Below are positions 1,302-40,473 of a DNA stretch of 40,473 bases, piece after piece. Both the position numbers and the translations under genes were made by a program. Source of the stretch: a virus; the IMG/VR virus record IMGVR_UViG_3300050119_000071, positions 1 through 40,473 of that record. The stretch is one strand, 5' to 3'. The notes beneath the pieces are model-generated. The model searched no databases. It was not told the DNA's origin and was given only the letters and a program-made list of their open reading frames with translations. Position 1 is the first letter of the stretch. Each line of letters begins with the position of its first letter.

Positions 1302-1859
1302 TTAGTTCTCCTTTATAATTTGAAACGGTCTTCTATTCATATATTCTTGTGCTTTAGCAGATGCCTCTTCAGGAAATCTATCAAGCGATGCAAGTAGCAT
1401 ATTATGCCCATAACAGATTTCACCTCTGTAGTTGTTTGGGTTGATTTTATTTCCGTCATGGTAATGATCGGAATTGAGAGATTTTCCATTTGATTGAACT
1501 AAACAATTGGGGAATTGACAAGTCTTTATCACTCCCATTTCTTTTATTTGTTCAGGAGTAAATCCATTCCTTATAAAGGTGTTATGAGTTCCACACTCCT
1601 TGCAAGTATGTTTTTGTCTTCCGTGTTCACATATTGCAGAACCTCCACAGTCCTTACACTTATGTTTTTGTCTTCCATGTTCACATATTCCTTGACCATC
1701 ACAGTCCTTACACTTATGTTTTTGTCTTCCATGTTCGCATATTCCTTGACCATCGCAGTCCTTACACTTATGTTTTTGTCTTCCATGTTCACATATTCCA
1801 GAACCACCGCATTCTTTACAATAATACTTCTCTCTTCCGTGCTCGCATTTTTTACTCAT
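1302..1859 (-). CDS. Endonuclease VII-like protein with five zinc fingers (paralogue A)
   Basis: 185 aa. Residues 1-93 are five tandem fingers of 18 residues, each C-x-H-x6-C-x2-C (CEHGRQKHKCKDC type), predicted to bind one zinc each. Residues 100-178 resemble the recombination endonuclease VII fold (T4 gp49 family, His-Me finger): zinc pair Cys114/Cys119, catalytic-type Asp131-His132, then RGEIC with Cys149, His152 and Asn153. In T4 the fourth zinc ligand is Cys; here it is His. The family resolves or nicks branched DNA, and related domains occur in free-standing homing nucleases. The leader AAGGAGAACTAAA precedes the ATG. Fingers 2 and 3 are nearly identical at DNA level, a sign of recent duplication. 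The nuclease assignment is good; the role of the array is unknown. Confidence 0.85.
   Translation of the reverse strand: MSKKCEHGREKYYCKECGGSGICEHGRQKHKCKDCDGQGICEHGRQKHKCKDCDGQGICEHGRQKHKCKDCGGSAICEHGRQKHTCKECGTHNTFIRNGFTPEQIKEMGVIKTCQFPNCLVQSNGKSLNSDHYHDGNKINPNNYRGEICYGHNMLLASLDRFPEEASAKAQEYMNRRPFQIIKEN
1581..1859 (-). repeat. 54-bp zinc-finger-coding tandem array A (five units)
   Basis: Five in-frame units of 54 bp encode the fingers of paralogue A. Units 2 and 3 differ at only two of 54 bases. The unit length keeps the reading frame, so unequal recombination would add or remove whole fingers. Confidence 0.9.
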
Positions 1860-1902
1860 TTTAGTTCTCCTTTATAATTTGAAAGCGTACTCTGTAACAC
1901 CC

Positions 1903-1917
1903 GGCGGCTTTGCCGCC
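1903..1917. other. GC-rich REP-like hairpin
   Basis: GGCGGC-TTT-GCCGCC is a perfect 6-bp GC-only hairpin in an otherwise AT-rich intergenic segment between the helicase gene and endonuclease A. Neither strand has a following T run, so it is a poor terminator. It resembles REP-type palindromes of bacterial chromosomes. The flanking bases 1886-1925 are also GC-rich compared with their surroundings, which suggests a small insertion. Confidence 0.5.
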
Positions 1918-1988
1918 TGTGGTTGAAGCAGAGCAAAGGCATATTTTCAGCCAATTTCCTAATTACTTGTGAAAATGGGTCTATTTCC

Positions 1989-2035
1989 AATGTCACGTTT
2001 TCTCTAAGTACTACCCTTAGAGGTTTCGTGACATT
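1989..2035 (-). promoter_or_regulatory. Two-part hairpin across the helicase stop codon
   Basis: AATGTCACG pairs with CGTGACATT (9 bp). After a small internal loop, CTCTAAG pairs with CTTAGAG (7 bp), closed by a 7-base loop. The stop codon of the helicase gene (2004-2006) lies in the inner stem. There is no T run, so a role in mRNA 3'-end stability, or as a substrate for the neighbouring branch-cutting nucleases, is more likely than simple termination. Confidence 0.6.
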
Positions 2036-3413
2036 TATCTACTGAGTCCTTAATCAAAGCACGCTTTCTCTGTTTTTGTTTTCTTTCAGTTGAAGTCATT
2101 GCCTCCTTCTTTTCCTTGAAACCTTTCATTGGAATTAAGTTCGCATTTGGGAAGAAGTCCTTCAAGTGTTTTGCCATACCAGATGTGGGAACACAAACAG
2201 TTACATTATTTGACCCAGTGCGAATTGCACTTCTCATTAGGGCTTGGTAAGCACCCAAAGTTTGTCTGTCCTTAACCAATTGATCTATTTCTCTCTTTGC
2301 TTCAGATGCATCATCAAATCTTGTTCTATACAAACGAATGAAATCGGGAGATAGATTGTATGCACCCGATAATATGACATTTTGATGGGAGGAATAATTG
2401 TTGAGTCCGTGACAGTTTGAGGGGATTACAGTTGAGGAAGATAGTGCTTTTGGAAAAGCAACATCTTTATTTGACTGTATCAAAGTATTCTCGCCGGTTA
2501 TGTTTGATGACTTCCGCAAATATTCATTCAAATGTCCACTTTGATTCATATAACTCCTGGACCAAAGTTCCTTGTCAAAACAATAATGAATGTTTATTTT
2601 GTTGGAGTGCTCGCTCCACTTACTTCCTGTTGTTGGAGTTAATTCAACTTCTGAGTTGAGACGGGAATACATCATGGTCTGTGTAAAGTATGCCGATAGA
2701 ACAGTGACGGATTTAAACGAACTGAATGATTTGGTTAAACAGAAATCGGCACTAAAATGAATTCGTGACTTCAAACCACTGCAAAAGTCCTCGTAGTCCG
2801 TTCTTAAACACCAAACATCATAATTCGGATTGATTAGATGAGTTGCGATTTCGTGAAATAGAGATTCAAATGCATCGTTTGACTTACCCAAAGCAATTGA
2901 ATTGATTCTGCAATGAACACCAAGTTTTGGTTTGAAATGAATTTTACTTGTGTATCGCTTATCAACAAGCAAGTTCTCATTCCCATCTTCCATAGTGGAC
3001 ATCTCTTTCAGTAAATTCAAACACATTTCCCGAGTTCCAATTTTGAAGTTATCATCAAATTGAAGAGAAACCAAAAGTGATGGATCAAAGTCCTCATCAA
3101 AATACAGAGTTTCATTTTGAAATAGAGTCCAATCGGTGAAATGTTTGAATCCTTCGTGAGTGCATAGGATGGGCGGGTGATTTGGAGTGCGCTCAAGGTA
3201 TTTCTGAAGAGAACCTGAAACACTGCATCTAAGTCCAACAGTATCCATTGTGTAGAGTTGCCAATCAATGTCGGAGTGGTTCTTCATTATCTCAAGACAT
3301 AATGCCTTGGAAGGGCAACAATAAATGGTTGGAACATTGGGATTCTGTCTTATTTCTTGAATGGATCGTGTTGTCTTTCCATCGCCTGCTCTACTTGCAT
3401 CATACTTTATCAT
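2004..3413 (-). CDS. Superfamily 2-like helicase/ATPase
   Basis: 469 aa. Walker A is SRAGDGKTT (residues 7-15), right at the N-terminus. A motif Ia-like segment TIYCCPSKAL lies at 29-38, Walker B is LYFDED (103-108), and a motif VI-like MRSAIRTG is in the C-terminal third. The tail is strongly basic (ERKQKQRKR). This is the layout of a DNA-dependent ATPase or helicase, and the only replication or recombination motor visible in the genome. I chose the ATG at 3411-3413, which puts Walker A at the start and overlaps the upstream endonuclease gene by 14 bases; an ATG 48 codons earlier would lie deep inside that gene. Coupling to the two flanking endonuclease VII-like genes suggests branched-DNA processing. 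The exact helicase family is uncertain. Confidence 0.7.
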   Translation of the reverse strand: MIKYDASRAGDGKTTRSIQEIRQNPNVPTIYCCPSKALCLEIMKNHSDIDWQLYTMDTVGLRCSVSGSLQKYLERTPNHPPILCTHEGFKHFTDWTLFQNETLYFDEDFDPSLLVSLQFDDNFKIGTREMCLNLLKEMSTMEDGNENLLVDKRYTSKIHFKPKLGVHCRINSIALGKSNDAFESLFHEIATHLINPNYDVWCLRTDYEDFCSGLKSRIHFSADFCLTKSFSSFKSVTVLSAYFTQTMMYSRLNSEVELTPTTGSKWSEHSNKINIHYCFDKELWSRSYMNQSGHLNEYLRKSSNITGENTLIQSNKDVAFPKALSSSTVIPSNCHGLNNYSSHQNVILSGAYNLSPDFIRLYRTRFDDASEAKREIDQLVKDRQTLGAYQALMRSAIRTGSNNVTVCVPTSGMAKHLKDFFPNANLIPMKGFKEKKEAMTSTERKQKQRKRALIKDSVDKCHETSKGST

Positions 3414-4122
3414 TGTTGACTCCAAAAGGTCTTCTATCCATATATTCTTGTGCTTTAGAAGATGCATCTTCGTGATGATTATCAAGCCATCCCAATAATA
3501 TATTATGCCCTGCGCAGATTTCTCCTCGATAGTTATCAGTATTAATTTTATGTCCATCGTGAAAATGATCTGAATGGAGAGATTTATCTTTTGAAGTAGT
3601 AATGCAGTTTGGAAATTGACAAGTCTTTATTGCTCCCATTTCTTTAATTTGATTTATAGTAAATCCGCCTTTCAAAAGTCCTCTATGTGTTCCACATTCT
3701 TTGCAATAATGTTTTTGTCTTCCATGTTCACACACAGAAGAACCACCACATTCTTTGCAATAATGTTTTTGTCTTCCATGTTCGCATATTGCTGATCCTC
3801 CGCAATATTTGCATTGCTGTTTTTGTCTTCCGTGTTCGCATATACCAACACCGACACATTCTTTGCATTTATCTCTTCGTCTTCCGTGTTCACATATGTT
3901 TGAACCACCACAACTCTTGCATTGCTGTTTTTGTCTTCCGTGTTCACATATATCTGAGCCACCACACTCTTTACACCTATACTTTGATTTTCCATGTTCG
4001 CATATTGCTGATCCTCCGCAGTCCTTGCACCTATGTTTTTGTCTTCCATGTTCACAAAATGCAGAACCACCGCATTCCTTGCATTGAGGCTTTCGCTTTC
4101 CGTGCTCGCATTTTTTACTCAT
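3400..4122 (-). CDS. Endonuclease VII-like protein with eight zinc fingers (paralogue B)
   Basis: 240 aa, first gene of the leftward unit. Residues 1-147 hold eight C-x-H-x6-C-x2-C fingers at an 18-residue pitch. Residues 155-230 are the endonuclease VII-like domain with Cys168/Cys173, Asp185-His186 and RGEIC with Cys203, His206 and Asn207, so all catalytic-type positions are kept. The nuclease part closely matches paralogue A. The finger linkers (GGSA, GGSD, GGSN, VGVG) vary more than in A, so this array is older. Its start has GGAGAACTAAA before the ATG, and this ribosome binding site is predicted to be paired in a long hairpin (4130-4196). The stop overlaps the helicase start by 14 bases. 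It probably acts on branched phage DNA; the array may give site or structure preference. Confidence 0.85.
   Translation of the reverse strand: MSKKCEHGKRKPQCKECGGSAFCEHGRQKHRCKDCGGSAICEHGKSKYRCKECGGSDICEHGRQKQQCKSCGGSNICEHGRRRDKCKECVGVGICEHGRQKQQCKYCGGSAICEHGRQKHYCKECGGSSVCEHGRQKHYCKECGTHRGLLKGGFTINQIKEMGAIKTCQFPNCITTSKDKSLHSDHFHDGHKINTDNYRGEICAGHNILLGWLDNHHEDASSKAQEYMDRRPFGVNNDKV
3682..4122 (-). repeat. 54-bp zinc-finger-coding tandem array B (eight units)
   Basis: Eight diverged in-frame 54-bp units, all coding for the C-x-H-x6-C-x2-C finger. All six frames stay nearly stop-free here, which generates long false ORFs on the plus strand. Confidence 0.9.
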
Positions 4123-4855: not shown

Positions 4856-5204
4856 ACAAGAGCGAGATGAAGACATTGTAAGTAAGCCCTATGATGTTTT
4901 AATCAACGAACGGGAATCCAATGAAGACTACACAAATCATAAGATTTACTCAAGAAACAAACGATTGAAACTGGCAATGCAATCGGGTGACTGGTATCGC
5001 AAATTGAGTATGGCATATGCCTTGCATATTCCTTGGTCAACACTTTATCAACCATCAAAAGAATTGGATAGCGAAACTATTGAATATATTGTGGCAAGAG
5101 CCACAGATATCACAACAAGTTCAACAAATCAATATTTAGACCATTACAGGAGACCACAGAGCAATGAAAAAGATAGGGAATTGGACACTGCCCCAACACA
5201 TTGA
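4842..5204 (+). CDS. Hypothetical protein
   Basis: 120 aa, not recognised. It is charged, with an RNKRLKLAMQSGDWYRKLSMAY-like central helix region and a polar C-terminus, and no membrane segment. AAGGAAC sits just before the ATG within the end of the previous gene. Its last 41 bases overlap the GIY-YIG gene. Position between an unknown gene and a nuclease gives no functional clue. Confidence 0.65.
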   Translation: MGYIRQERDEDIVSKPYDVLINERESNEDYTNHKIYSRNKRLKLAMQSGDWYRKLSMAYALHIPWSTLYQPSKELDSETIEYIVARATDITTSSTNQYLDHYRRPQSNEKDRELDTAPTH

Positions 5205-5616
5205 TGAATTCAATGTCAATGAGTGGATTGGGTTTGTCTATATAATTCAATCACCGGAAAATAGATATTATATCGGCAAGAAGAACTTTCATTCAATCAC
5301 AAAGAAAACAGTCAAGGGAAAGATAAGAAAGCAGATCGTATGCAAAGAATCCAATTGGAAAACTTATACTGGTAGTTCAAAGGCATTGAATGAAGATATT
5401 TCGAAGATGGGTATTGAGAACTTCAAATTCTATATTCTAAGTCTTCATGAATCACGATCTTCTCTTGCATATTTTGAATGTAAGTTTATTCTTGCATCGG
5501 ATGCCCTATTGAACTCAAAGTTTTACAATAGAATTTGCCCACCCATCAAATGGACTATCAATATCTCAGATAAAGAGAAGGCCACCAATTACAATTGCTG
5601 TGGATGGACAATATGA
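5164..5616 (+). CDS. SegE-like GIY-YIG endonuclease
   Basis: 150 aa. Residues 20-40 read GFVYII...RYYIGKKNF, the GIY-YIG signature in the SegE-like variant (GFVYxI and YIGKK). A W-K-T-Y-x-G-S-S block (about 74-81) and a conserved Glu in a Y-F-E-C segment (about 108) follow, as in that family. Such free-standing nucleases usually act as homing endonucleases, cutting related phage genomes next to their own locus. The start has AGGAGACC upstream and overlaps the preceding gene by 41 bases. The stop overlaps the next start (ATGA). The domain call is good; homing is inference. Confidence 0.8.
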   Translation: MKKIGNWTLPQHIDEFNVNEWIGFVYIIQSPENRYYIGKKNFHSITKKTVKGKIRKQIVCKESNWKTYTGSSKALNEDISKMGIENFKFYILSLHESRSSLAYFECKFILASDALLNSKFYNRICPPIKWTINISDKEKATNYNCCGWTI

Positions 5617-6297: not shown

Positions 6298-6771
6298 ATG
6301 GCAAAAAGAGGAAGACCAACCAAATACAATCAAAAATTGGCACTAGAAATCTGCGAAGCAATCTCCACTGAAGGTTTAGGTTTGAACCGACTTTCGGAAA
6401 AGTATCCTCATTTCCCTGTAAAGGCTCAAATTTTCAAATGGATACTAAAATATCCTGCTTTTCGAGACCTTTACCGCCTTGCAAAACAAAATCAAGAACA
6501 TTATATGGCTGAAGATATTTTAGATATCGCCTATACTCCTGAATACATTGAAGATATAGACACAGAGATTAAAGAAGATGGAACTGTCATCAAAAAACAT
6601 AAAATATTTGATAATGTTCATCGCTCCAAATTGAAGATTGATGCTCTAAAATGGAAACTTGCCCGCCTAAATCCTCAAAAATGGGGAGATACTTCAAAGA
6701 TTATAGGTGATGCCAATGCTCCAATTACAATTGCTGTCAAACATTTAAATGTGGATGACATAAAAGAATAA
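6298..6771 (+). CDS. terS: Terminase small subunit (Sf6 gp1-like)
   Basis: 157 aa. It opens with KRGRPTKYNQKLALEIC, typical of Sf6-type small terminases, continues with a helix-turn-helix (about 25-60: LNRLSEKY...KAQIFKWILKYPAFRDLY) and a helical segment (QNQEHYMAEDILDIA), then R-SKLKIDALKWKLARLNPQKWGD, the conserved end of the oligomerisation region. It binds the packaging site on phage DNA and regulates the large subunit. The stop overlaps the large-terminase start as TAATG. Headful packaging, as in Sf6, would fit the circular assembly. Confidence 0.85.
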   Translation: MAKRGRPTKYNQKLALEICEAISTEGLGLNRLSEKYPHFPVKAQIFKWILKYPAFRDLYRLAKQNQEHYMAEDILDIAYTPEYIEDIDTEIKEDGTVIKKHKIFDNVHRSKLKIDALKWKLARLNPQKWGDTSKIIGDANAPITIAVKHLNVDDIKE

Positions 6772-8405
6772 TGCCCACTGTAGATATTGGAACACTACTG
6801 CCGAAACAATCTCAATTCTATTATGAACTGAGAGATGGAAAACATAGTGTAATTGGAATTGGCGGTGGACGAGGCTCAGGTAAATCAAGTTGTTTGGATC
6901 GTGTTATTCTTACTCTAATGGCAGAATCCAAGATATCTGTTTGTATGGTAATGCGCAACTCAGATCAGATTGTTAAATACCATGTCAAGAAGATAGTTGA
7001 AGATTTTCCGTGGGTTGAAAGTTATATCAAAGTTTCGCCTCCTGCTTCTCTAACAATAGGACAGAGTAGATTGGATTTCTCCTATGCTGAAACTCTTGAT
7101 GATGTAAAGCGAAGATCAATGTCAGGTAACTATGACATATTTGTTATAGATCAATCGGAACAGTTTACAGAGGAAGAAGTATCTGAATTTAGAAGAGCCT
7201 GTCGTTCAACACAATTGGGAAAGAAGGCTAAACTTGTTCTATCATTTAATATGCGTGGAGCAGGTATTGAATTTCACAGGAAATGGTTTAGAGACAAAGA
7301 TGTTCCCGATCCTGAAAATTTAGTGTTTATAAAGTTTTCTCCGTGGGATAATGTATTCTGGTCTATTAACCAGTTGGTTGAAGATAAATTAACTATTAAA
7401 GATTACTATAGATGGACTGATGATCAACGAAGAGATTATGCTGGAAAGTATGGAGACTATACAAAACAACTTGCAGGCGATGATCAAGCAATAAGCGCAG
7501 CCGATTGGTTTGGAAGTTGGGATAGTATTGAAGGAACATATTTCAGCAATGTTTGGGATTTGGAGGGAACAAGAATTGATCCTGTAACTGCCGACCTATT
7601 GAGAAAAGATTGGGCGCATTGTTGGATAAGTCAGGATTGGGGAAGAGCACACAATTGCGTTACCTATTGGCATTACCGTGTTTCATTATCTCCCAAGGAA
7701 GCAAATGCAGTATTGGGGTGGGAACTTAAGAATCCTATCAATATAGTTTGCACATACAGAGAAATGATTATATCAGGTTCGGAGAATACAAATAAAGTCA
7801 TTGGAGAGGTAATTAGAGATAAAGAGTCCAATGAAGTTGCACAATGTATAGTTGATAGAACTCCCGAACATGAAAGGAAGAAGATTAAATCATATTATCT
7901 AAGTCCTGATGGATGGGATGTTAAAGATTCAAAGAACACAGTGGCATTATCTCAAGGTACTGTGTTGAAACGGAATGGAATGCCTGCCCCTTTGGAAGCA
8001 GATTGGAGTCGTAAGAGTGGGTGGGCTTTAATGGCGCGTCTAATGAAGGGAACCAAAGGTAGGGGCTATCTTAGGGACACCAATGATAATTTAGTTCAGG
8101 CTGAAGATGTTTGGCTTATTTCAAATGAATGTCCAAATTTGTTAAACTCTATTCCTATGTTGATGCGAGATAAGAAGGATATTGAAGATGTGGCAAAGAC
8201 AGATAAATCTGCAAGTAAGTTGGAAATGGATTGTGCTGATTCCTGTCGTTACGGTTTAAAGTCAATGTTATCACCAAAGAAGAAGACCTCAGAAGATGTT
8301 TACAAAGAGAAGTTTGCAAATGCAGTTCCAGAAGAACAAATGTTGATGGCTTGGCGTAGGATGAAAGAAAACGAAAACAAGTCCAGAACAGTTAAACCTT
8401 ATTAA
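6771..8405 (+). CDS. terL: Terminase large subunit
   Basis: 544 aa, normal length. ATPase domain: Walker A GGGRGSGKSS (31-40) and Walker B IFVID with Asp127. The usual catalytic Glu after the Asp is replaced by Gln128, with Glu130 two residues on (DQSEQF); this variant may shift the catalytic residue. Nuclease domain (RNase H fold): Asp289 in SQDWG, Asp362 in IVDR and Asp487/Asp490 in MDCAD. It cuts concatemeric DNA and drives it into the prohead through the portal. Operonic with the small subunit. Confidence 0.93.
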   Translation: MPTVDIGTLLPKQSQFYYELRDGKHSVIGIGGGRGSGKSSCLDRVILTLMAESKISVCMVMRNSDQIVKYHVKKIVEDFPWVESYIKVSPPASLTIGQSRLDFSYAETLDDVKRRSMSGNYDIFVIDQSEQFTEEEVSEFRRACRSTQLGKKAKLVLSFNMRGAGIEFHRKWFRDKDVPDPENLVFIKFSPWDNVFWSINQLVEDKLTIKDYYRWTDDQRRDYAGKYGDYTKQLAGDDQAISAADWFGSWDSIEGTYFSNVWDLEGTRIDPVTADLLRKDWAHCWISQDWGRAHNCVTYWHYRVSLSPKEANAVLGWELKNPINIVCTYREMIISGSENTNKVIGEVIRDKESNEVAQCIVDRTPEHERKKIKSYYLSPDGWDVKDSKNTVALSQGTVLKRNGMPAPLEADWSRKSGWALMARLMKGTKGRGYLRDTNDNLVQAEDVWLISNECPNLLNSIPMLMRDKKDIEDVAKTDKSASKLEMDCADSCRYGLKSMLSPKKKTSEDVYKEKFANAVPEEQMLMAWRRMKENENKSRTVKPY

Positions 8406-8414
8406 GAGAGACCT

Positions 8415-8675
8415 ATGAAAATAAATTGGTTCAAACTATTTAAACCGAATGTATATCTGTTGGAACAAGAGTTGGAATATGTTAAATCATTGCTTGCCCA
8501 GACTCAAAAGAAATTGGATGATGCAAATATCTACATTCTTGAATCCAAGACTCAGATAAGAACTATCAATAAAAGTAATAATCCATATGTTAAACCAGTT
8601 GCTTTTGGATGGGAGGCTTTTCAAGCCAATCATCCTTTGGAAACTGAATCTAAAGATTCAAATGAGGTAATATAA
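8415..8675 (+). CDS. Hypothetical coiled-coil protein
   Basis: 86 aa. Residues 15-55 form a probable coiled coil (LLEQELEYVKSLLAQTQKKL, then further heptads). The start MKINWFKLF is basic and aromatic, the end acidic. Not recognised; small coiled-coil proteins between terminase and portal genes are common in podoviruses and usually uncharacterised. GAGAGACC precedes the ATG; the stop overlaps the next gene as TAATG. Confidence 0.7.
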   Translation: MKINWFKLFKPNVYLLEQELEYVKSLLAQTQKKLDDANIYILESKTQIRTINKSNNPYVKPVAFGWEAFQANHPLETESKDSNEVI

Positions 8676-9013
8676 TGGCATACAAGGCTTCCGACGGATC
8701 AGAATTCTCCAACCTTCCAAGATTGAAACAGCACGAGCGTAGACTATCTGCCAATGCTCCATCACCTAAACTAAAACTTCCAACTCTTGCAGAAGATACT
8801 GAACAAGATACAGACCAAGATCAGGATCAAGACTCAGATCAAACACAGGATATTACCTCAGACCCCGAGGCAATGGAATGTATTGAGAAACTCAAGACAC
8901 TGGGATATACAAAGGAACAGGTTGATGAAGCCTTTGATTCCGATGATAATCAATCTTCCGATGATACTCAATCCTCTGATGACAATAGTCCCGCGATCCC
9001 AGGACTTAGATAA
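8675..9013 (+). CDS. Acidic low-complexity protein
   Basis: 112 aa. The first 45 residues are mildly basic; then come Asp/Gln-rich tracts (EDTEQDTDQDQDQDSDQTQD), a short ordered helical stretch (about 68-86, MECIEKLKTLGYTKEQVDEA, resembling a UBA-like or EF-hand-adjacent three-helix piece) and a second Asp/Ser tract. Mostly disordered and strongly acidic. Possibly a small structural or assembly factor; not recognised. The start overlaps the previous stop (TAATG). Confidence 0.65.
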   Translation: MAYKASDGSEFSNLPRLKQHERRLSANAPSPKLKLPTLAEDTEQDTDQDQDQDSDQTQDITSDPEAMECIEKLKTLGYTKEQVDEAFDSDDNQSSDDTQSSDDNSPAIPGLR

Positions 9014-9015
9014 TT

Positions 9016-9192
9016 ATGTCCCAGAGTAAAATTAATAAGAGACCGTCATTGGGAAGGCAAGTGGAAGAACTGCGTATTGAGAACTCTCTACTTGCTCAGG
9101 CTATTTTAGACTGCACCAATAACATTCAAATCCTATACGATCAGTTTCGTAAGATAGTGGAGAACCAATGTCAGACAACTTCCAAGATTTAG
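9016..9192 (+). CDS. Small helical protein upstream of portal
   Basis: 58 aa. A basic N-terminus is followed by one long predicted amphipathic helix (VEELRIENSLLAQAILDCTN then NIQILYDQF), likely a coiled coil. It starts two bases after the previous stop and overlaps the portal start by 25 bases. No family recognised. The open frame, its position and its protein-like composition support a real gene. Confidence 0.6.
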   Translation: MSQSKINKRPSLGRQVEELRIENSLLAQAILDCTNNIQILYDQFRKIVENQCQTTSKI

Positions 9193-11675
9193 ATGAAAAT
9201 TCAAAACTAAATGTAGATGAGAATGGCAATGAAGAAGCGCCTGTGTATCAGGATGGAGAACTCTGTGAATTTATTGTCACCAACTCTAAAGTTTGGAAAC
9301 CAGATGAATTGAAAAAGACCGACCCTGAATTAGTTCAAACTATTCTTAATCTGGTCAAGTCTCGTTCATCTGATGAGGAAGCATCCCGTAGATTCTCTGT
9401 ATTGCAGTGCTGGCAAGCAAGACACTTTGATCGTGGTTATCAACACCTTCAAAATGATGGAGGTGGTTTCAGGATTGCAGGAATTTCAAACAACACCAAT
9501 AGAAACAGTGTATCGGATACAGACGATGCTCAGTTATTCCCCACCAATATCTATGCCTCTCAGGGTGATATAATCACAGGCGCTCTCAATCGTGGAGCAA
9601 TCAAGGTTAGTTTTAGTGCATCCACCAAGGAGCCTATTAATACTCGTGCCGCAGCAGAAGCCAATAAGTATAAACATATCTGGTATAATGTTAACAAGGC
9701 AACTGAGTTGCAAAGAGAAGTATCTGGTCTATTCTGGACTGATCCTCGTGCTATGTTATGGACTCGTTCTGTCAAGGACAAGGCTAAGTTTGGAACCAAT
9801 GATGGTGGCGAAGGAGAAGATGAAATTAGGGTAGTTGAGATTACAACAGCCCACGGTTTATTGGAAACAAGACTTCCTATGCTTGAGGACAATCTATCGG
9901 ATTGTATTTTTGCCAACATCTATAAGGAAGTTGATTATGCATCTGCAAGATGTCAATATCCTTGGGCAAAAGATAAGATTTCTCCAAACACTGGTTCATC
10001 AGCTGAAACAGAGTTTGAAAGAATCGCCCGTATCAATACAAGAAGTGGATTGGTTGGAAAGTATTTGACAGGAAGCAACAGTATGAAAACCACCACACTT
10101 TGTTATTCTTGGCAAAGACCCAAGGCTTTTTACAGTGATGAAGTAAAGGATAAACAGCAAGAATTTCTTCTCAGGAACTTTAGTAAAGGTCTATTTGCCA
10201 TTGTTTCAAATGATACCTTGCTATGTTGCTGGGAAGAGTCTATGGATGATCACTTGGCACTAGGTAATGCGTGCAGAGGATTTGGTCAAGGTCGTCGAGC
10301 ACTGGGAAGCTCCGATATACCTCTTCAAAAAAGAATTAATATTTGGTCTGGACTTCTTGATGAATATTTCCGTCGCTCCATTCCTGTAACCTTAGTTGAT
10401 GATCAGGCTTTTAATCCTGAGGCACTCTCTGAACTAAAAGGAAGTCCTGGTAGATTCGTATCTGCTGTTGCTCCAGAAGGACAGAGTATTCAAGGATTGG
10501 TTGGACAGACTCCTCAATCTCAGCCACTTCCTTCTCATCCTGAAATGTTGCAATATTGGTTAGGTCCACTGATTCAGTCTATTGATGGAGCAACTCCTGC
10601 CTTGTTTGGTGGTGGAGAAGGTCAGGACAATACAGTGGGGGCAACTCAGATAAGGTTGAATCAGGCATTGGAAAGAATTGGACCTGCTTGGATGACTTTG
10701 AATGAGATGTTTGCAACTGCTGTAGGTCAGGCTGCAAAATGCTGTGCTGAAAATGGTAACTCTGAAATTACAGGTTCATACGAAGGAGTTGGAGATATCG
10801 TTGTAAAACCTGAAAATCTCAAAGGCAATGTCATTACCAAGGCTGAAACAACCAATGCAATTCCAGAATCTGGAACTCAGAAGGAAGCAAAGGTTATGAT
10901 GATTTTGGATATGGCAAATTCAAATCAGAATGTTGGACAACTAATTGCAAGTCCTTCAAATGCACGAGAAATTGTCAACGCTTTGCATATTGATGATATC
11001 ATTACAATTGATGAAGCGGAATCAGAGGATAAACAGTTGGAAGAAATAGAAGTCCTTATCTCCTCTGAACCTTTAATCAATCCTGAATGGGAACAGTTAA
11101 ATCAACAACTATCTGAACTTAGTGCAAAACACGATCAGGCTAAAAATCTTGCTATTCAAGCAACTTCAGGTGGAAAACAACTTGCACCAGACATCATTCA
11201 GCAAGGTGATGCTATGGAAAGTCAAGTTGAAACTTTAACCAATCAGTTAAAGGATATGCCACAATATCTCTCATCTATTCCTGTGGCAAAGGATGATAGT
11301 GAAGATCACGCCACTGAAGCAAGCACTTGTTTTGCATGGATGCAAGAATCGGTGGGTAGATCATTGCGAGCAAAATCCAATGGCAAGGAGTTTGGAGATT
11401 TAAATTGGAATAAATGGAATAATGTTTATCTTCATTGGCAAGCACATAAAGAAATGATCAAACAGATTGCAAGTGAAAATGCCGAACCTCAGATTCCTAA
11501 ACTTTCCCTTACAGGTAAAATGAATCCCGATTCTATAAGTCAATTATTGGCGGCGGCTGGAGTTAAACCAAGTCAAAATGCTCCCCAACAGCCTCCAGTT
11601 GCTGAAGTTCATAAGGAAACTATAAGTAGAACTCCTTTCAACGAAACCAAAGTAAAGACTATTAGGAAGATTTAA
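9168..11675 (+). CDS. Portal protein
   Basis: 835 aa, in the range of large podovirus portals (P22 gp1 is 725). The order fits: directly after terminase, before scaffold and capsid. The N-terminal region (40-130) is helical with FSVLQCWQARHFDRGYQHL, the central region (140-420) mixed, and the C-terminal half rich in long helices (about 600-740), as in portal crown and barrel helices. The dodecamer would form the DNA entry vertex and dock the terminase. Identification rests on size, position and general resemblance to podoviral portals, not on a single motif. TGGAGAACCA precedes the ATG. Confidence 0.8.
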   Translation: MSDNFQDLDENSKLNVDENGNEEAPVYQDGELCEFIVTNSKVWKPDELKKTDPELVQTILNLVKSRSSDEEASRRFSVLQCWQARHFDRGYQHLQNDGGGFRIAGISNNTNRNSVSDTDDAQLFPTNIYASQGDIITGALNRGAIKVSFSASTKEPINTRAAAEANKYKHIWYNVNKATELQREVSGLFWTDPRAMLWTRSVKDKAKFGTNDGGEGEDEIRVVEITTAHGLLETRLPMLEDNLSDCIFANIYKEVDYASARCQYPWAKDKISPNTGSSAETEFERIARINTRSGLVGKYLTGSNSMKTTTLCYSWQRPKAFYSDEVKDKQQEFLLRNFSKGLFAIVSNDTLLCCWEESMDDHLALGNACRGFGQGRRALGSSDIPLQKRINIWSGLLDEYFRRSIPVTLVDDQAFNPEALSELKGSPGRFVSAVAPEGQSIQGLVGQTPQSQPLPSHPEMLQYWLGPLIQSIDGATPALFGGGEGQDNTVGATQIRLNQALERIGPAWMTLNEMFATAVGQAAKCCAENGNSEITGSYEGVGDIVVKPENLKGNVITKAETTNAIPESGTQKEAKVMMILDMANSNQNVGQLIASPSNAREIVNALHIDDIITIDEAESEDKQLEEIEVLISSEPLINPEWEQLNQQLSELSAKHDQAKNLAIQATSGGKQLAPDIIQQGDAMESQVETLTNQLKDMPQYLSSIPVAKDDSEDHATEASTCFAWMQESVGRSLRAKSNGKEFGDLNWNKWNNVYLHWQAHKEMIKQIASENAEPQIPKLSLTGKMNPDSISQLLAAAGVKPSQNAPQQPPVAEVHKETISRTPFNETKVKTIRKI

Positions 11676-11683
11676 GGACTCCA

Positions 11684-12295
11684 ATGAACAAATTAATATG
11701 TATCGTTGCACGACACGGATGTTCAGAGGGAAACGAGAAAGGTATCTTTCGTAGTCAAAAGGACTATAAACTTACACAAGAAGGCATTGATCAAGCCCAC
11801 GCTGCCAAGAAATTTATTAAGAAATTCAATATCTCTCTTGCAATGTGTAGTTCCCTCTCGCGAGCATTGGATACTGCAAGGATAATTGCCTCCAATTGGA
11901 ATCTTTATGTATTTCAAGAAAGAACTCTTTTACCATGGAACACTGGATGCTTCACCGATCTTAACAAGGATGAAAATCAGGATGCTCTTCAACTTTTCAT
12001 CAATTCTCCAGAGATAGTAATTCCAAATGGAGAATCTTTGGATGCCTTTGAAGAGAGACAGTTTAATTTTTGGAACTCTTTCCTCAAAGAAGATAAATCA
12101 GGACTTCCACTTGTTGTGTGTCATAACAGTGTAATAACAAGTCTTGTAAAATTCATAGATGGTAAGGAAACTGATTTGGCACACAAGGAAATTGTTCGTC
12201 CAGGTGGAGTTCTGGGAGTCTATAGAAATGGCAATAAGTTTACCTCCAAAGTGTTATTTGGAGAGGCTGAACCAGAAAGTTTCAGCGGGAGTTAA
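11684..12295 (+). CDS. Histidine phosphatase family protein
   Basis: 203 aa. It has the histidine phosphatase (phosphoglycerate mutase-like) signature ARHGCSEGN with Arg10-His11-Gly12; His11 is the phosphate acceptor. Further family residues are visible: Arg60 in SSLSRALDTA, an acidic Glu79, and the second catalytic His147 in VVCHNSV, so it should be active. Substrates in the family range from phosphosugars to nucleotides and proteins; nothing here tells which. Location between portal and scaffold, in the middle of the virion operon, is unusual. Possible roles are metabolic reprogramming, a nucleotide phosphatase or a modified assembly factor. Confidence 0.85.
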   Translation: MNKLICIVARHGCSEGNEKGIFRSQKDYKLTQEGIDQAHAAKKFIKKFNISLAMCSSLSRALDTARIIASNWNLYVFQERTLLPWNTGCFTDLNKDENQDALQLFINSPEIVIPNGESLDAFEERQFNFWNSFLKEDKSGLPLVVCHNSVITSLVKFIDGKETDLAHKEIVRPGGVLGVYRNGNKFTSKVLFGEAEPESFSGS

Positions 12296-35834: not shown

Positions 35835-36380
35835 ATGACAGCAAAAGAATACTTGGAAAAACAAAATTGGAGTCGTCGTATTCCTCAAGATCAAATGAGC
35901 GTTCCCGATTCTTCATATCCTATGGCGGGGAATGAATGGCAACGCAGTAACCAATCAACTCCAGTTTCTCATCCTCCACCGGTGTCTATTCAAGACTATC
36001 TCAGGCAAAATCCGCCGCCAACTGTTTCCGCTCCCATTGATGAACAAGATTATGTGAATAAATTCCCACCCATTAATATTGCGCGGCCGGATATTCTTAA
36101 GAATTATACTGCGCCGAAGGGCTATGTCAATGATCAAGAAAAACTTAATCAGACATCGGACCAAATCAAGAATTATATTCCTCCAAAGGGCTATGTCAAT
36201 GATCAAGAAAGGCATAATCAGACAGCAGACCAAATTAAGAATTATATTCCGCCAAAGGGATATGTCAATGATCAGGAACGGGCGAAACAGTTGGCGGATC
36301 AAATCAAGGCAGCAAAATCAAATATTGATATAATGGATCTTCCAAGAATTCCAGATAACGTGTTAATTCCAAAGAGGTAA
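35835..36380 (+). CDS. Protein with three 23-residue repeats
   Basis: 181 aa. Pro-rich, disordered N-terminal half; then three near-perfect 23-residue repeats of the form KNY-x-x-PKGYVNDQE...Q-x-x-DQI (about 89-157). The repeats alternate Pro-Gly turns and polar helices. Not recognised, probably a flexible structural or binding protein. The start is three bases after the previous gene. Confidence 0.65.
   Translation: MTAKEYLEKQNWSRRIPQDQMSVPDSSYPMAGNEWQRSNQSTPVSHPPPVSIQDYLRQNPPPTVSAPIDEQDYVNKFPPINIARPDILKNYTAPKGYVNDQEKLNQTSDQIKNYIPPKGYVNDQERHNQTADQIKNYIPPKGYVNDQERAKQLADQIKAAKSNIDIMDLPRIPDNVLIPKR
36099..36305 (+). repeat. 69-bp tandem repeat, three copies
   Basis: Three in-frame copies of 69 bp beginning at 36099, 36168 and 36237, encoding the 23-residue unit of the surrounding gene. 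Confidence 0.85.
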
Positions 36381-37460: not shown

Positions 37461-37994
37461 TTATCGTCTTGACCACCTACCAAACACCTTTTGAACTTGG
37501 TAGTGCGCGACCGATATCGCCGCCGGCAAAGAGATGTAACTGCCAAAGTATAGTGCGTTTCCATTGATATTCAATTCGACGCGCCACCTTTGATCCCGCT
37601 TGCTCCAATGAACTCCTCTCACGCCCGAAATTCCCCACCCACATTTTCTATTTTGCGTGTTTCCACTATAGTTTGATTTGCGGATATTTGATCTTGTGTT
37701 ATCCAGTGAATTTCCATCTCTATGATCGGAGTGGACTGATGATTTCAAATCACTAAGAGCAATCCCCAATTTTCTTGCAAGGATTACTCTATGAAGATAA
37801 ACAATTGATCGAGGTTTCAAACCCCAAAATATACTTGAGTGTTTGGTAACTGAATGACGGGCATATGGAACTTTTGTCTTCTTAGTCCCTGGGAAGATCA
37901 TCGTCCAAGTGTGATATTTCAAAAGGTCGTGGTCACAATCCGATACTTTAATTTTGTAATTGGTTCCGTTATGATTGATTGTCTCTGATTTCAT
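37461..37994 (-). CDS. HNH endonuclease with AP2 DNA-binding domain
   Basis: 177 aa. HNH part: YLHRVILA (His about 67) and SDHRDGNSLDNTRSNIR (about 88-104), the typical HNH_3 pattern. A C-terminal AP2/ERF-like domain (about 122-170: SGVRGVHWSKRDQRWRVEL...FGSY...AAISVAH) gives DNA recognition. Such fusions are free-standing homing endonucleases. It ends the leftward unit and abuts the last rightward gene stop to stop. An AGGAGA ribosome binding site lies next to a hairpin at 38008-38023. Confidence 0.88.
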   Translation of the reverse strand: MKSETINHNGTNYKIKVSDCDHDLLKYHTWTMIFPGTKKTKVPYARHSVTKHSSIFWGLKPRSIVYLHRVILARKLGIALSDLKSSVHSDHRDGNSLDNTRSNIRKSNYSGNTQNRKCGWGISGVRGVHWSKRDQRWRVELNINGNALYFGSYISLPAAISVAHYQVQKVFGRWSRR

Positions 37995-38135: not shown

Positions 38136-38690
38136 TTATTCGTAAATTTGTCCCTTTAGAATCAACGGCCTGCGTTTCATATATTCTTGTGCTTCTGTAT
38201 TTGCCCATTTGGGAAACCTATCCAACAATGCAAGTATCTTATGATGAAAATGACAGACTTCACCTCTGTAGTTGTTTGGGTTGATTTTATCTCCGTCATG
38301 AAAATGATCGGATTTGAGAGATTTTCCGTTTTCCTGTATTAAACAATTTGGGAATTGGCAAACCCTGATTGCTCCCATACTCTTGATCTGTTCTGATGTG
38401 AATCCACCTTTTAAAAGTTTTCTATCAGTGCCACATTCTTTACACCTATACTTAAATTTTCTGTGTTCACATATATCTGGACCGCCGCAGTCCTCGCACT
38501 GTCTCCTCATCCTATTATGTTCGCAACCACGACAGTCCTTACAACTATACTTTCGCCTTCCATGCTCGCAAAATGCAGAACCACCGCATTCCTTGCATTG
38601 ATACTTTCGTCTGTTATGCTCGCATATTTGAGAACCACCACAGTCCTTACAAATGTACTTTATTCTATTATGTTCGCATTTTTTAATCAA
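38136..38690 (-). CDS. Endonuclease VII-like protein with five zinc fingers (paralogue C)
   Basis: 184 aa, starting with TTG (plus-strand CAA at 38688-38690), overlapping the upstream stop by eight bases. Five fingers (1-90) more diverged than in A and B (CEHNR and CEHRK variants; the linker after finger 3 is shortened). The nuclease domain keeps Cys111/Cys116 and Asp128-His129, but the catalytic-type Asn after the zinc His is replaced by His150 (CHFHH instead of CxGHN). It may be inactive or use a different residue. The weak start and the substitution suggest a degenerating or specialised copy. Confidence 0.85.
   Translation of the reverse strand: MIKKCEHNRIKYICKDCGGSQICEHNRRKYQCKECGGSAFCEHGRRKYSCKDCRGCEHNRMRRQCEDCGGPDICEHRKFKYRCKECGTDRKLLKGGFTSEQIKSMGAIRVCQFPNCLIQENGKSLKSDHFHDGDKINPNNYRGEVCHFHHKILALLDRFPKWANTEAQEYMKRRPLILKGQIYE
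38421..38690 (-). repeat. Zinc-finger-coding tandem array C (five units)
   Basis: Five diverged units of 48-54 bp; one linker is shortened, so the 18-residue pitch is not exact here. Confidence 0.85.
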
Positions 38691-38892: not shown

Positions 38893-39167
38893 TCCGATTC
38901 CTCAAAACTCCGACCACATATCTCCAGGGATTCTTTTGTTGAGTATAAATAGTAACTTATATATTCTTTTCTACTATCTTCTACGGACTTCCATCCTGGA
39001 GTATCATATAACTTATCCCAATATGGCTCTGTGCCTATCTTATCGCAATCTTTCAACATCCCTAACTTGCTTTCACCATTCAACATCCAATACTCATTGA
39101 AACCATATTCAACTGGTTCAAAATTATGTAATTTTAATAACATCAGGTCTTCGTCTGTTAATTTCAT
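38889..39167 (-). CDS. Hypothetical acidic protein
   Basis: 92 aa from the ATG at 39167, preceded by GGAGGGAGAA and overlapping the methyltransferase stop as ATGA; an upstream start inside that gene is not supported. Acidic, aromatic-rich (YGFNEYWMLNG, TEPYWDKLY), no membrane segment. Not recognised. Coupling to the methyltransferase suggests a linked role, for example as modulator or anti-restriction partner (inference). Confidence 0.7.
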   Translation of the reverse strand: MKLTDEDLMLLKLHNFEPVEYGFNEYWMLNGESKLGMLKDCDKIGTEPYWDKLYDTPGWKSVEDSRKEYISYYLYSTKESLEICGRSFEESE

Positions 39168-40324
39168 TTCTCCCTCCGATCCTCCACTTCTTGAATTCTT
39201 TCTCCAATCCATCTCACCACTGGCACTGCCATACTATTACCAAGTGCTTTGTATCTTGCAGTGTCTTTTGCACCAGGTATGTTGGAATACCCATCCTCAA
39301 ATCCCATCAATCTCTCGCATTCTATAGGAAGAAATCTTCTAACGGTTTTGACAGTATCTTGGCTTTCTGGAATAGTCATATTTCTATATGTATCCGAAAC
39401 AAGATTCTTGGTGCCGTCATTATGACTTTGCCAATTACTTGATAGTGTATTGGCAACTAAGTTATTATGACCTTCTTCTATGCCTGCAAATTGCGATTGA
39501 ATTGTAATAGTATCTGCAACAACATTTTTAATTTGGTTATGACTACCATCAAACGGCGGCCCTGCTCTTAAAGTTTGACAAACCAACTTATTGGCTGACT
39601 CCCTAACATCTTCAACATTGTTGCGCATTGGACGAGTTTTCAAAGTTGATGTTAATTGTTGGCTACATACTCCATCGCCTCTTGAACATCCGGTCTCATC
39701 TTGAAAGTTCTTCCCGTCTTTTTCATTCCCGGTGTGCTGTTTATTAGTTCCGCTTTTGCTTGACGACTTAGGATTCCTTTGCAACAGACCTTGCTCAAAT
39801 AATACTTCTGCGGCTGGACGCCAGTCTCCAAGATATCCAACAACGAAGACTCTACGGCGTCTTTGGGGGACCCCGAAATACTGAGCGTCAAGAATTCGGT
39901 AGGCGAGACCATACCCGCATTTTTGCATCTCGCTGAGGATGGCAATGAAATCCCGTCCTTTGTTACTGGATAGTGCCCCTGCAACATTTTCCCAGACGAA
40001 CCATCGGGGCTGTTTCTCTCTAAGGATTTTACAAAACTCAAGGGTGAGTTGTCCTTTGTCTCCGGCCATTCCTGCTCGTTGACCAGCAAGGGAAAAATCT
40101 TGGCAAGGAGTTCCTCCGATGATGAGGTCAATTTCTGTGTTCTTGAAGATTTCGTTTTCATTTAATTTCGTCATATCTCCTAAATTTGGTATTGTTGGGT
40201 AATGATATTTCAATAATTGACAAGGGAACTTTTCAATTTCTGAATACCACGCAGCCTTCCATCCAAGTGGTTCCCACGCAACTGTCGCTGCCTCAATTCC
40301 TGAGCAAATGCTTCCGTATTTCAT
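39164..40324 (-). CDS. DNA (cytosine-5-)-methyltransferase
   Basis: 386 aa with the full C5 motif order: motif I SICSGIEAATVAWEPLGW (5-22), motif IV GGTPCQDFS with catalytic Cys74, motif VI WENVAG (Glu112), motif VIII VPQRRRR (about 152-158), a target-recognition region of about 130 residues with several SANKL/NNLVANTL-like near-repeats, and motif IX/X RYKALGNSMAVPV at the end. It methylates cytosine in phage DNA, probably to escape host restriction. No cognate endonuclease is seen, so it is a solitary enzyme. The start overlaps the zinc-ribbon gene as ATGA. Target sequence unknown. Confidence 0.95.
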   Translation of the reverse strand: MKYGSICSGIEAATVAWEPLGWKAAWYSEIEKFPCQLLKYHYPTIPNLGDMTKLNENEIFKNTEIDLIIGGTPCQDFSLAGQRAGMAGDKGQLTLEFCKILREKQPRWFVWENVAGALSSNKGRDFIAILSEMQKCGYGLAYRILDAQYFGVPQRRRRVFVVGYLGDWRPAAEVLFEQGLLQRNPKSSSKSGTNKQHTGNEKDGKNFQDETGCSRGDGVCSQQLTSTLKTRPMRNNVEDVRESANKLVCQTLRAGPPFDGSHNQIKNVVADTITIQSQFAGIEEGHNNLVANTLSSNWQSHNDGTKNLVSDTYRNMTIPESQDTVKTVRRFLPIECERLMGFEDGYSNIPGAKDTARYKALGNSMAVPVVRWIGERIQEVEDRREK

Positions 40325-40473
40325 TTATCTATTTCCAAGAATCCATTTTTGTTCACAAACATTCCGGTCATTTTTCGTGCGCAAAAACTTGAACAAAATC
40401 GACGAAGTTTTCTCTTAATGATAAAAATATGTGCCAAATCACCCTCTCTTCCACAATAACCACATTTGATTTT
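40321..40473 (-). CDS. Small zinc-ribbon protein, 3' part (junction copy)
   Basis: Right-end copy of the 51-aa zinc-ribbon gene: codon 2 to stop, lacking only the ATG that sits at 128-130 on the left end. TGA at 40321-40323 overlaps the methyltransferase ATG (40322-40324). Closing the circle gives one uninterrupted gene with two Cys pairs, so this is not a separate gene. Confidence 0.75.
   Translation of the reverse strand, partial: KIKCGYCGREGDLAHIFIIKRKLRRFCSSFCARKMTGMFVNKNGFLEIDK
40347..40473. repeat. Terminal direct repeat, right copy
   Basis: Exact copy of 1-127; see the left copy. Confidence 0.95.

Follow-up and report, generated by a model that had tools for sequence, protein, structure and literature searches.

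Why does a bacterial virus carry three nuclease genes with tandem zinc-finger arrays, two of them at the sides of a helicase gene? The window, that is, the whole analysed stretch of 40,473 nt (IMGVR_UViG_3300050119_000071), belongs to such a virus, and we call the three genes A, B and C (Table 1). The original prediction joined 5-8 fingers to an endonuclease VII (Endo VII)-like nuclease in each of the three, and this is confirmed, with 8 + 5 + 5 = 18 fingers. It also holds that the arrays differ in length (8/5/5) while the nuclease parts stay close, the latter being 56-63% identical in pairs (63% for B versus A).

Genome setting

The ends of the contig are identical over 127 nt (1-127 and 40347-40473), hence the genome is circular or circularly permuted, and complete. 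This places C about 3 kb from B, so that A, B and C form one minus-strand cluster, which also holds the C5 methyltransferase, the AP2-HNH gene and the helicase. The TTG start of C overlaps the stop codon of its upstream gene. The plus strand carries the terminase and a long module collinear with that of the related phage G003. Contig 3300049729_000107 has a copy of the SegE-type gene at 45% identity. Three in-frame 69-nt repeats (36099-36305) lie in a late gene of unknown function.

Table 1. Features of the window
Feature	Position	Strand	Remarks
Array nuclease A	3400-4122	minus	240 aa; 8 fingers, then Endo VII-like domain
Finger array of A	3694-4110	minus	8 units x 18 residues, C-x-H-x6-C-x2-C
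Endo VII-like nuclease domain of A	3403-3690	minus	C-x4-C, SDHFHD, YRGEIC, C-x2-H-N
Array nuclease B	1302-1859	minus	185 aa; 5 fingers, then Endo VII-like domain
Array nuclease C	38136-38690	minus	184 aa; 5 fingers, TTG start
29-nt perfect direct repeat TTTCAAATTATAAAGGAGAACTAAAATGA, upstream copy	1856-1884	minus	ribosome site and start codon of B
29-nt repeat TTTCAAATTATAAAGGAGAACTAAAATGA, downstream copy	1297-1325	minus	last codons of B and ribosome site/start of next gene
Lysine-rich 58-aa ORF	1124-1300	minus	start inside downstream repeat
P-loop helicase-like protein, phrog_2467	2004-3413	minus	between A and B
SegE-type GIY-YIG homing endonuclease	5164-5616	plus	near A; PF19835 E 6.5e-29
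Terminase large subunit (TerL)	6771-8405	plus	
AP2 + HNH homing-type endonuclease	37461-37994	minus	adjoins C
C5 (cytosine) methyltransferase	39164-40324		in minus-strand cluster with A, B and C

The nuclease domain

The Pfam family Endonuclease_7 (PF02945) has a curated cut-off of 23.6 bits. The array nuclease of locus L009 lies above it (24.6 bits, E 2.3e-5); the nuclease part of A (19.7 bits, E 8.3e-4), L010 (20.8 bits, E 3.6e-4) and L011 (13.1 bits) lie below it, and B, C and L012 give no match. As whole proteins A, B and C have no Endo VII match, and the nuclease part of A matches when it is taken alone. The predicted relation to Endo VII is supported.

The motifs C-x4-C, SDHxHDG and NYRGE are invariant in seven of seven array nucleases (A, B, C and four relatives). 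The second zinc pair is C-x2-H in all seven, not the C-x2-C of the DHHRN/Endo VII-motif homing endonucleases, and we therefore regard them as a variant rather than as strict DHHRN members. The catalytic Asn after this pair is present in A, B and the four relatives; in C its position is taken by His (FHH). The order of the motifs matches T4 gp49 and F-CphI, the alignment to gp49 being by itself not significant, and the Endo VII motif is C-terminal, as in the DHHRN/Endo VII-motif homing endonucleases. The AF2 model of the B nuclease part has a beta-beta-alpha core of modest to low confidence, and PDB sequence and Foldseek searches return nothing significant, with T4 Endo VII second in the Foldseek list at E 2.8. 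The dN/dS between the copies is 0.12-0.37 where estimable. We are confident that A, B and C carry an Endo VII-type nuclease.

The finger array

The fingers of A, B and C follow each other at exactly 18 residues, with the sole exception of one 15-residue gap in C. The window contains 15 matches to the DNA pattern of a single finger and 100 dinucleotide-preserving shuffles contain none, and with this control chance repeats are rejected as the origin of the fingers. The unit has the form C-E-H-G/N-R/K-x-K/R-x-x-C-K-x-C-G-G-x-x-I. We aligned 88 units from 17 array genes, where C1, H3, C10 and C13 are fixed by the search pattern and the other positions are free. Positions 5, 7 and 11 are mostly basic, position 15 is mostly Gly, and positions 6, 8 and 9 are the most variable (3.1-3.4 bits); the spacing is 18 residues, with rare variants of 23 or 15. 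Fingers 2-4 of B are almost identical. In the predicted structure the B fingers are short knuckles (pLDDT about 80), and we infer that they bind zinc.

The array stays below every Pfam cut-off in the scans made, NCBIfam being run on the nuclease parts only, and a search of open-access papers on the motif letters returned no relevant paper on it. It thus looks like a new modular zinc-finger array, not described in the open-access literature searched. We judge it likely that the array binds DNA.

Arrays on other nuclease cores

The fingers alone were then used as the query: viral contigs were scanned by finger spacing, together with 84,980 prokaryote species genomes, which gave two matches. Twelve of the 13 judgeable array genes are fused to a nuclease, and at least four types of core are distinguished by motif and PHROG matches: Endo VII-like, HIDHIIP HNH, GIDR...CN HNH (phrog_3118) and SLDR...VIS (phrog_3322, E 2.9e-29). 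The His-Me superfamily probably includes all four. A contig that is binned as Opitutaceae and looks eukaryotic has a fifth core, which was judged by eye. The idea of a modular finger array joined to a nuclease is thus strengthened, and from the sequences the array looks like a swappable module found in otherwise unrelated viruses. An array without nuclease also occurs, as a three-finger ORF (L027:10528-10740 and L028) with no nuclease downstream in any frame. One array-bearing contig, 3300037485_001433, has a Pox_A32-like (poxvirus A32-like) ATPase, which makes it probable that viruses of eukaryotes carry such arrays too. That fingers of this type occur in algae and giant viruses had been suggested at the outset, and the contigs named here are what bears on it. 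For some relatives, PHROG weakly matches the nuclease core to anti-sigma families.

When 50,697 phage records were searched with A, with its array or its nuclease part, and with another array, no credible array came up, and the genome scan with protein alignment gave no match. The one plasmid match (annotated as a signal-peptide protein) was set aside, and a huge-phage match, LR756501, is a protein without these fingers.

Several array loci have features of their own. In 3300037485_001433 two identical inverted array genes lie about 1.3 kb apart (L021/L025), possibly an assembly palindrome. The array gene at L015:123-827 is split by an IS200/IS605-type TnpA, with intact pieces in sister contigs (L020, L009). 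An IS605-type TnpB (L010:2806-4029) lies about 1.6 kb upstream of another array nuclease gene. A 360-kb viral contig with an array nuclease (L012) carries NadA and PTPS/QueD-like genes at 10470-11561 and 8524-9066.

Mobility of the array genes

At the DNA level, the matches listed between the window and the fetched array loci are those of the array genes and, in the tail region, a single stretch of 43 nt. The proteins bring in, besides these, only one GIY-YIG gene, the tail genes of G003, window 11684-12295 with a weak match in L019, and the helicase homologues from T4-like phages, which were fetched on purpose. G003 is a related phage: its TerL is 53% identical, and the terminase and most of the late/structural module follow the same order as in the window, with 35-66% identity. 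The early region of G003 is unrelated, without homologues of the other early genes of the window. The window has three array genes versus one in G003, there at a different place and on a different strand. The nuclease of B shares 69% identity with that of the G003 array gene, copies from unrelated contigs come just as close, and more than one branching order is compatible with the tree. B and the G003 copy could come from one ancestral gene that relocated. A single clade of A, B and C has an AU p of 0.32, so that duplication within the genome is compatible with the tree. As single queries on the viral contigs, the helicase and TerL gave no match; since the TerL scan missed G003 at 53% identity, such scans reach close relatives only.

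B lies between two copies of a perfect 29-nt repeat (Table 1), which fits an insertion at a start codon. This is a single case: direct repeats of this kind were sought at 13 other array genes and found at none. The leader may also have been duplicated in some other way. To find the empty site of B, its 22-nt leader was used as the query, and the two contigs found have a similar leader ahead of other genes only. In one of them, an unrelated contig, it precedes an ORF resembling a Rha + T5orf172-type fusion (L044:2112-2133).

Between two of its late genes, G003 also has a homing-type Endo VII gene of the ordinary form (L046:13903-14298), and the homologues of both flanking genes are adjacent in the window (15372/15444), making a natural empty site.

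We consider it likely that the array nuclease genes are mobile.

The helicase neighbour

A and B do flank the helicase gene: the stop of A (at 3400-3402) and the likely start of the helicase (ATG at 3413) overlap, and 145 nt separate the helicase stop from the start of B. The further proposal of a nuclease-helicase system finds no support in the comparison with other genomes. A homologue of the helicase is found in none of the 13 other array-bearing viral records (a search run without a positive control). In T4-like phages its homologues have gp55-region and other genes as neighbours, and no nucleases of this kind accompany them. The helicase next to the single array gene of G003 belongs to SF1 and is not homologous to that of the window. 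We hence reject the helicase as a conserved partner. Nor is it the only motor protein of the genome, as had been stated, since TerL is present. Homing genes are known to cluster near essential genes (PMC10448857), and that alone would account for neighbours such as helicases. The phrog_2467 protein is conserved and unnamed in T4-like phages, in some of them near gp55, and some records name it DNA primase.

Proposed mechanism and alternatives

At the level of sequence we see finger arrays, a nuclease family, multiple cores, patchy spread and different positions in related genomes. We suggest that A, B and C probably encode free-standing endonucleases of the homing type, akin to F-CphI with its Endo VII motif, and that their finger array is new and binds DNA. 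With its N-terminal array the enzyme would attach to DNA, and its Endo VII-like His-Me domain at the C-terminus would nick or cut close by. In mixed infection, the genome with the gene would serve as template for repair of the cut, and the gene would thereby spread. The array may be a detachable module that was joined to several His-Me cores, and it may lengthen and shorten via tandem duplication of 54-nt units.

The homing reading draws support from the Endonuclease_7 matches, the kept DHxH/R/Asn residues (Asn in A and B) and the low dN/dS, from the C-terminal position of the motif, as in the homing/endonuclease clade of PMC6083498, and from the nuclease fusions on at least four cores, with DNA sharing essentially limited to the array genes. 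The other place of the array gene in G003, the 29-nt repeat at B and the SegE GIY-YIG and AP2-HNH genes of the same genome point the same way. Against it stand the almost identical fingers 2-4 of B, which are odd for a long unique target, the loss of the catalytic Asn in C, the low AF2 confidence for the nuclease and the non-significant Foldseek result. No intron or target site was found, and the Rfam and tRNA scans were empty.

The known systems set these proteins in context. F-CphI (cyanophage S-PM2 ORF177, DHHRN family), which founded the Endo VII-motif homing endonucleases (PMC6083498), is likewise a free-standing phage gene with an N-terminal zinc-type module and a C-terminal Endo VII domain with C-x2-4-C, DHxH, R and N. 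Where A, B and C have 5-8 tandem C-x-H-x6-C-x2-C fingers, it has a single CxxC...CxxC module; the fourth zinc ligand of A, B and C is His (C-x2-H), and C is without the Asn. The T4 Mob/Seg, ICP1 AP2-HNH and T5orf172 homing genes (PMC10448857) also combine a terminal nuclease with DNA-binding modules at the opposite end, lie near essential genes and occur several per genome; their DNA-binding modules are different, and none in PMC10448857 is a tandem array of this finger. The Endo VII protein of Pseudanabaena phage Pan2 (L041:1168-1716) has tandem Cys/His repeats ahead of the Endo VII domain as well, though of the form C-x4-C...C-x2-H, which adds a second type to the tandem Cys/His modules that accompany this nuclease.

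T4 endonuclease VII (gp49), a Holliday-junction resolvase, has the same catalytic motifs in the same order. Like it, A, B and C might instead clear branched DNA in replication or packaging, with the fingers adding non-specific affinity for DNA or RNA, which would suit the Endo VII-family domain and an early-gene cluster beside a helicase, a neighbour seen in G003 too. We find this improbable, since both the place and the number of the copies vary and the array is found on at least four cores, unrelated HNH ones among them. Moreover, three divergent copies share one genome, the neighbouring helicases are non-homologous, and the motif of gp49, which has no finger array, is N-terminal, whereas in the array nucleases it is C-terminal, which is the arrangement of the homing clade and differs from that of the resolvase clade, and little follows the nuclease. 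The cytosine methyltransferase in the same cluster raises the thought of a weapon against competing phages or host DNA, from which this methyltransferase would protect the virus itself in the manner of Hpy99I-like restriction enzymes, and Endo VII-motif restriction enzymes beside methylases do exist (PMC6083498). The methyltransferase family is, however, present in one of the 13 other array records, and there far from the array (about 13.8 kb versus 82.7 kb), which leaves this a slim chance.

Short zinc knuckles often bind RNA. The fingers might thus bind RNA or protein, not DNA, and the proteins be regulators or anti-host factors; the near identity of fingers 2-4 of B and the weak anti-sigma matches would agree with this. 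With 12 of the 13 judgeable arrays fused to a nuclease and the catalytic residues conserved in A and B, we hold it very improbable. We return to homing-type endonucleases as the preferred reading, with which a DNA-binding role for the array and a part in inter-phage competition are both compatible. A homing endonuclease is reported to act in such competition (PMC11620839).

Implications

If the array binds DNA, viruses own naturally modular zinc-finger nucleases. Engineered zinc-finger nucleases likewise join a zinc-finger array to a nuclease, with C2H2 fingers of about 28-30 residues and the FokI nuclease. The viral unit would be far smaller than a C2H2 finger or a TALE repeat, and array length would be a natural variable. 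To our knowledge, the present fingers have no established recognition code. It is conceivable, though unlikely, that the 18-residue finger serves naturally as a module for reading DNA by a code of its own, finger by finger, with the fixed C, H, C, C and the basic residues as the scaffold and positions 6, 8 and 9 hypervariable, and that viruses of bacteria, and probably of eukaryotes, put arrays of about 3-8 such fingers on any available His-Me nuclease. DNA binding by the array could explain how homing genes change their targets, and would add a compact new DNA-binding repeat.
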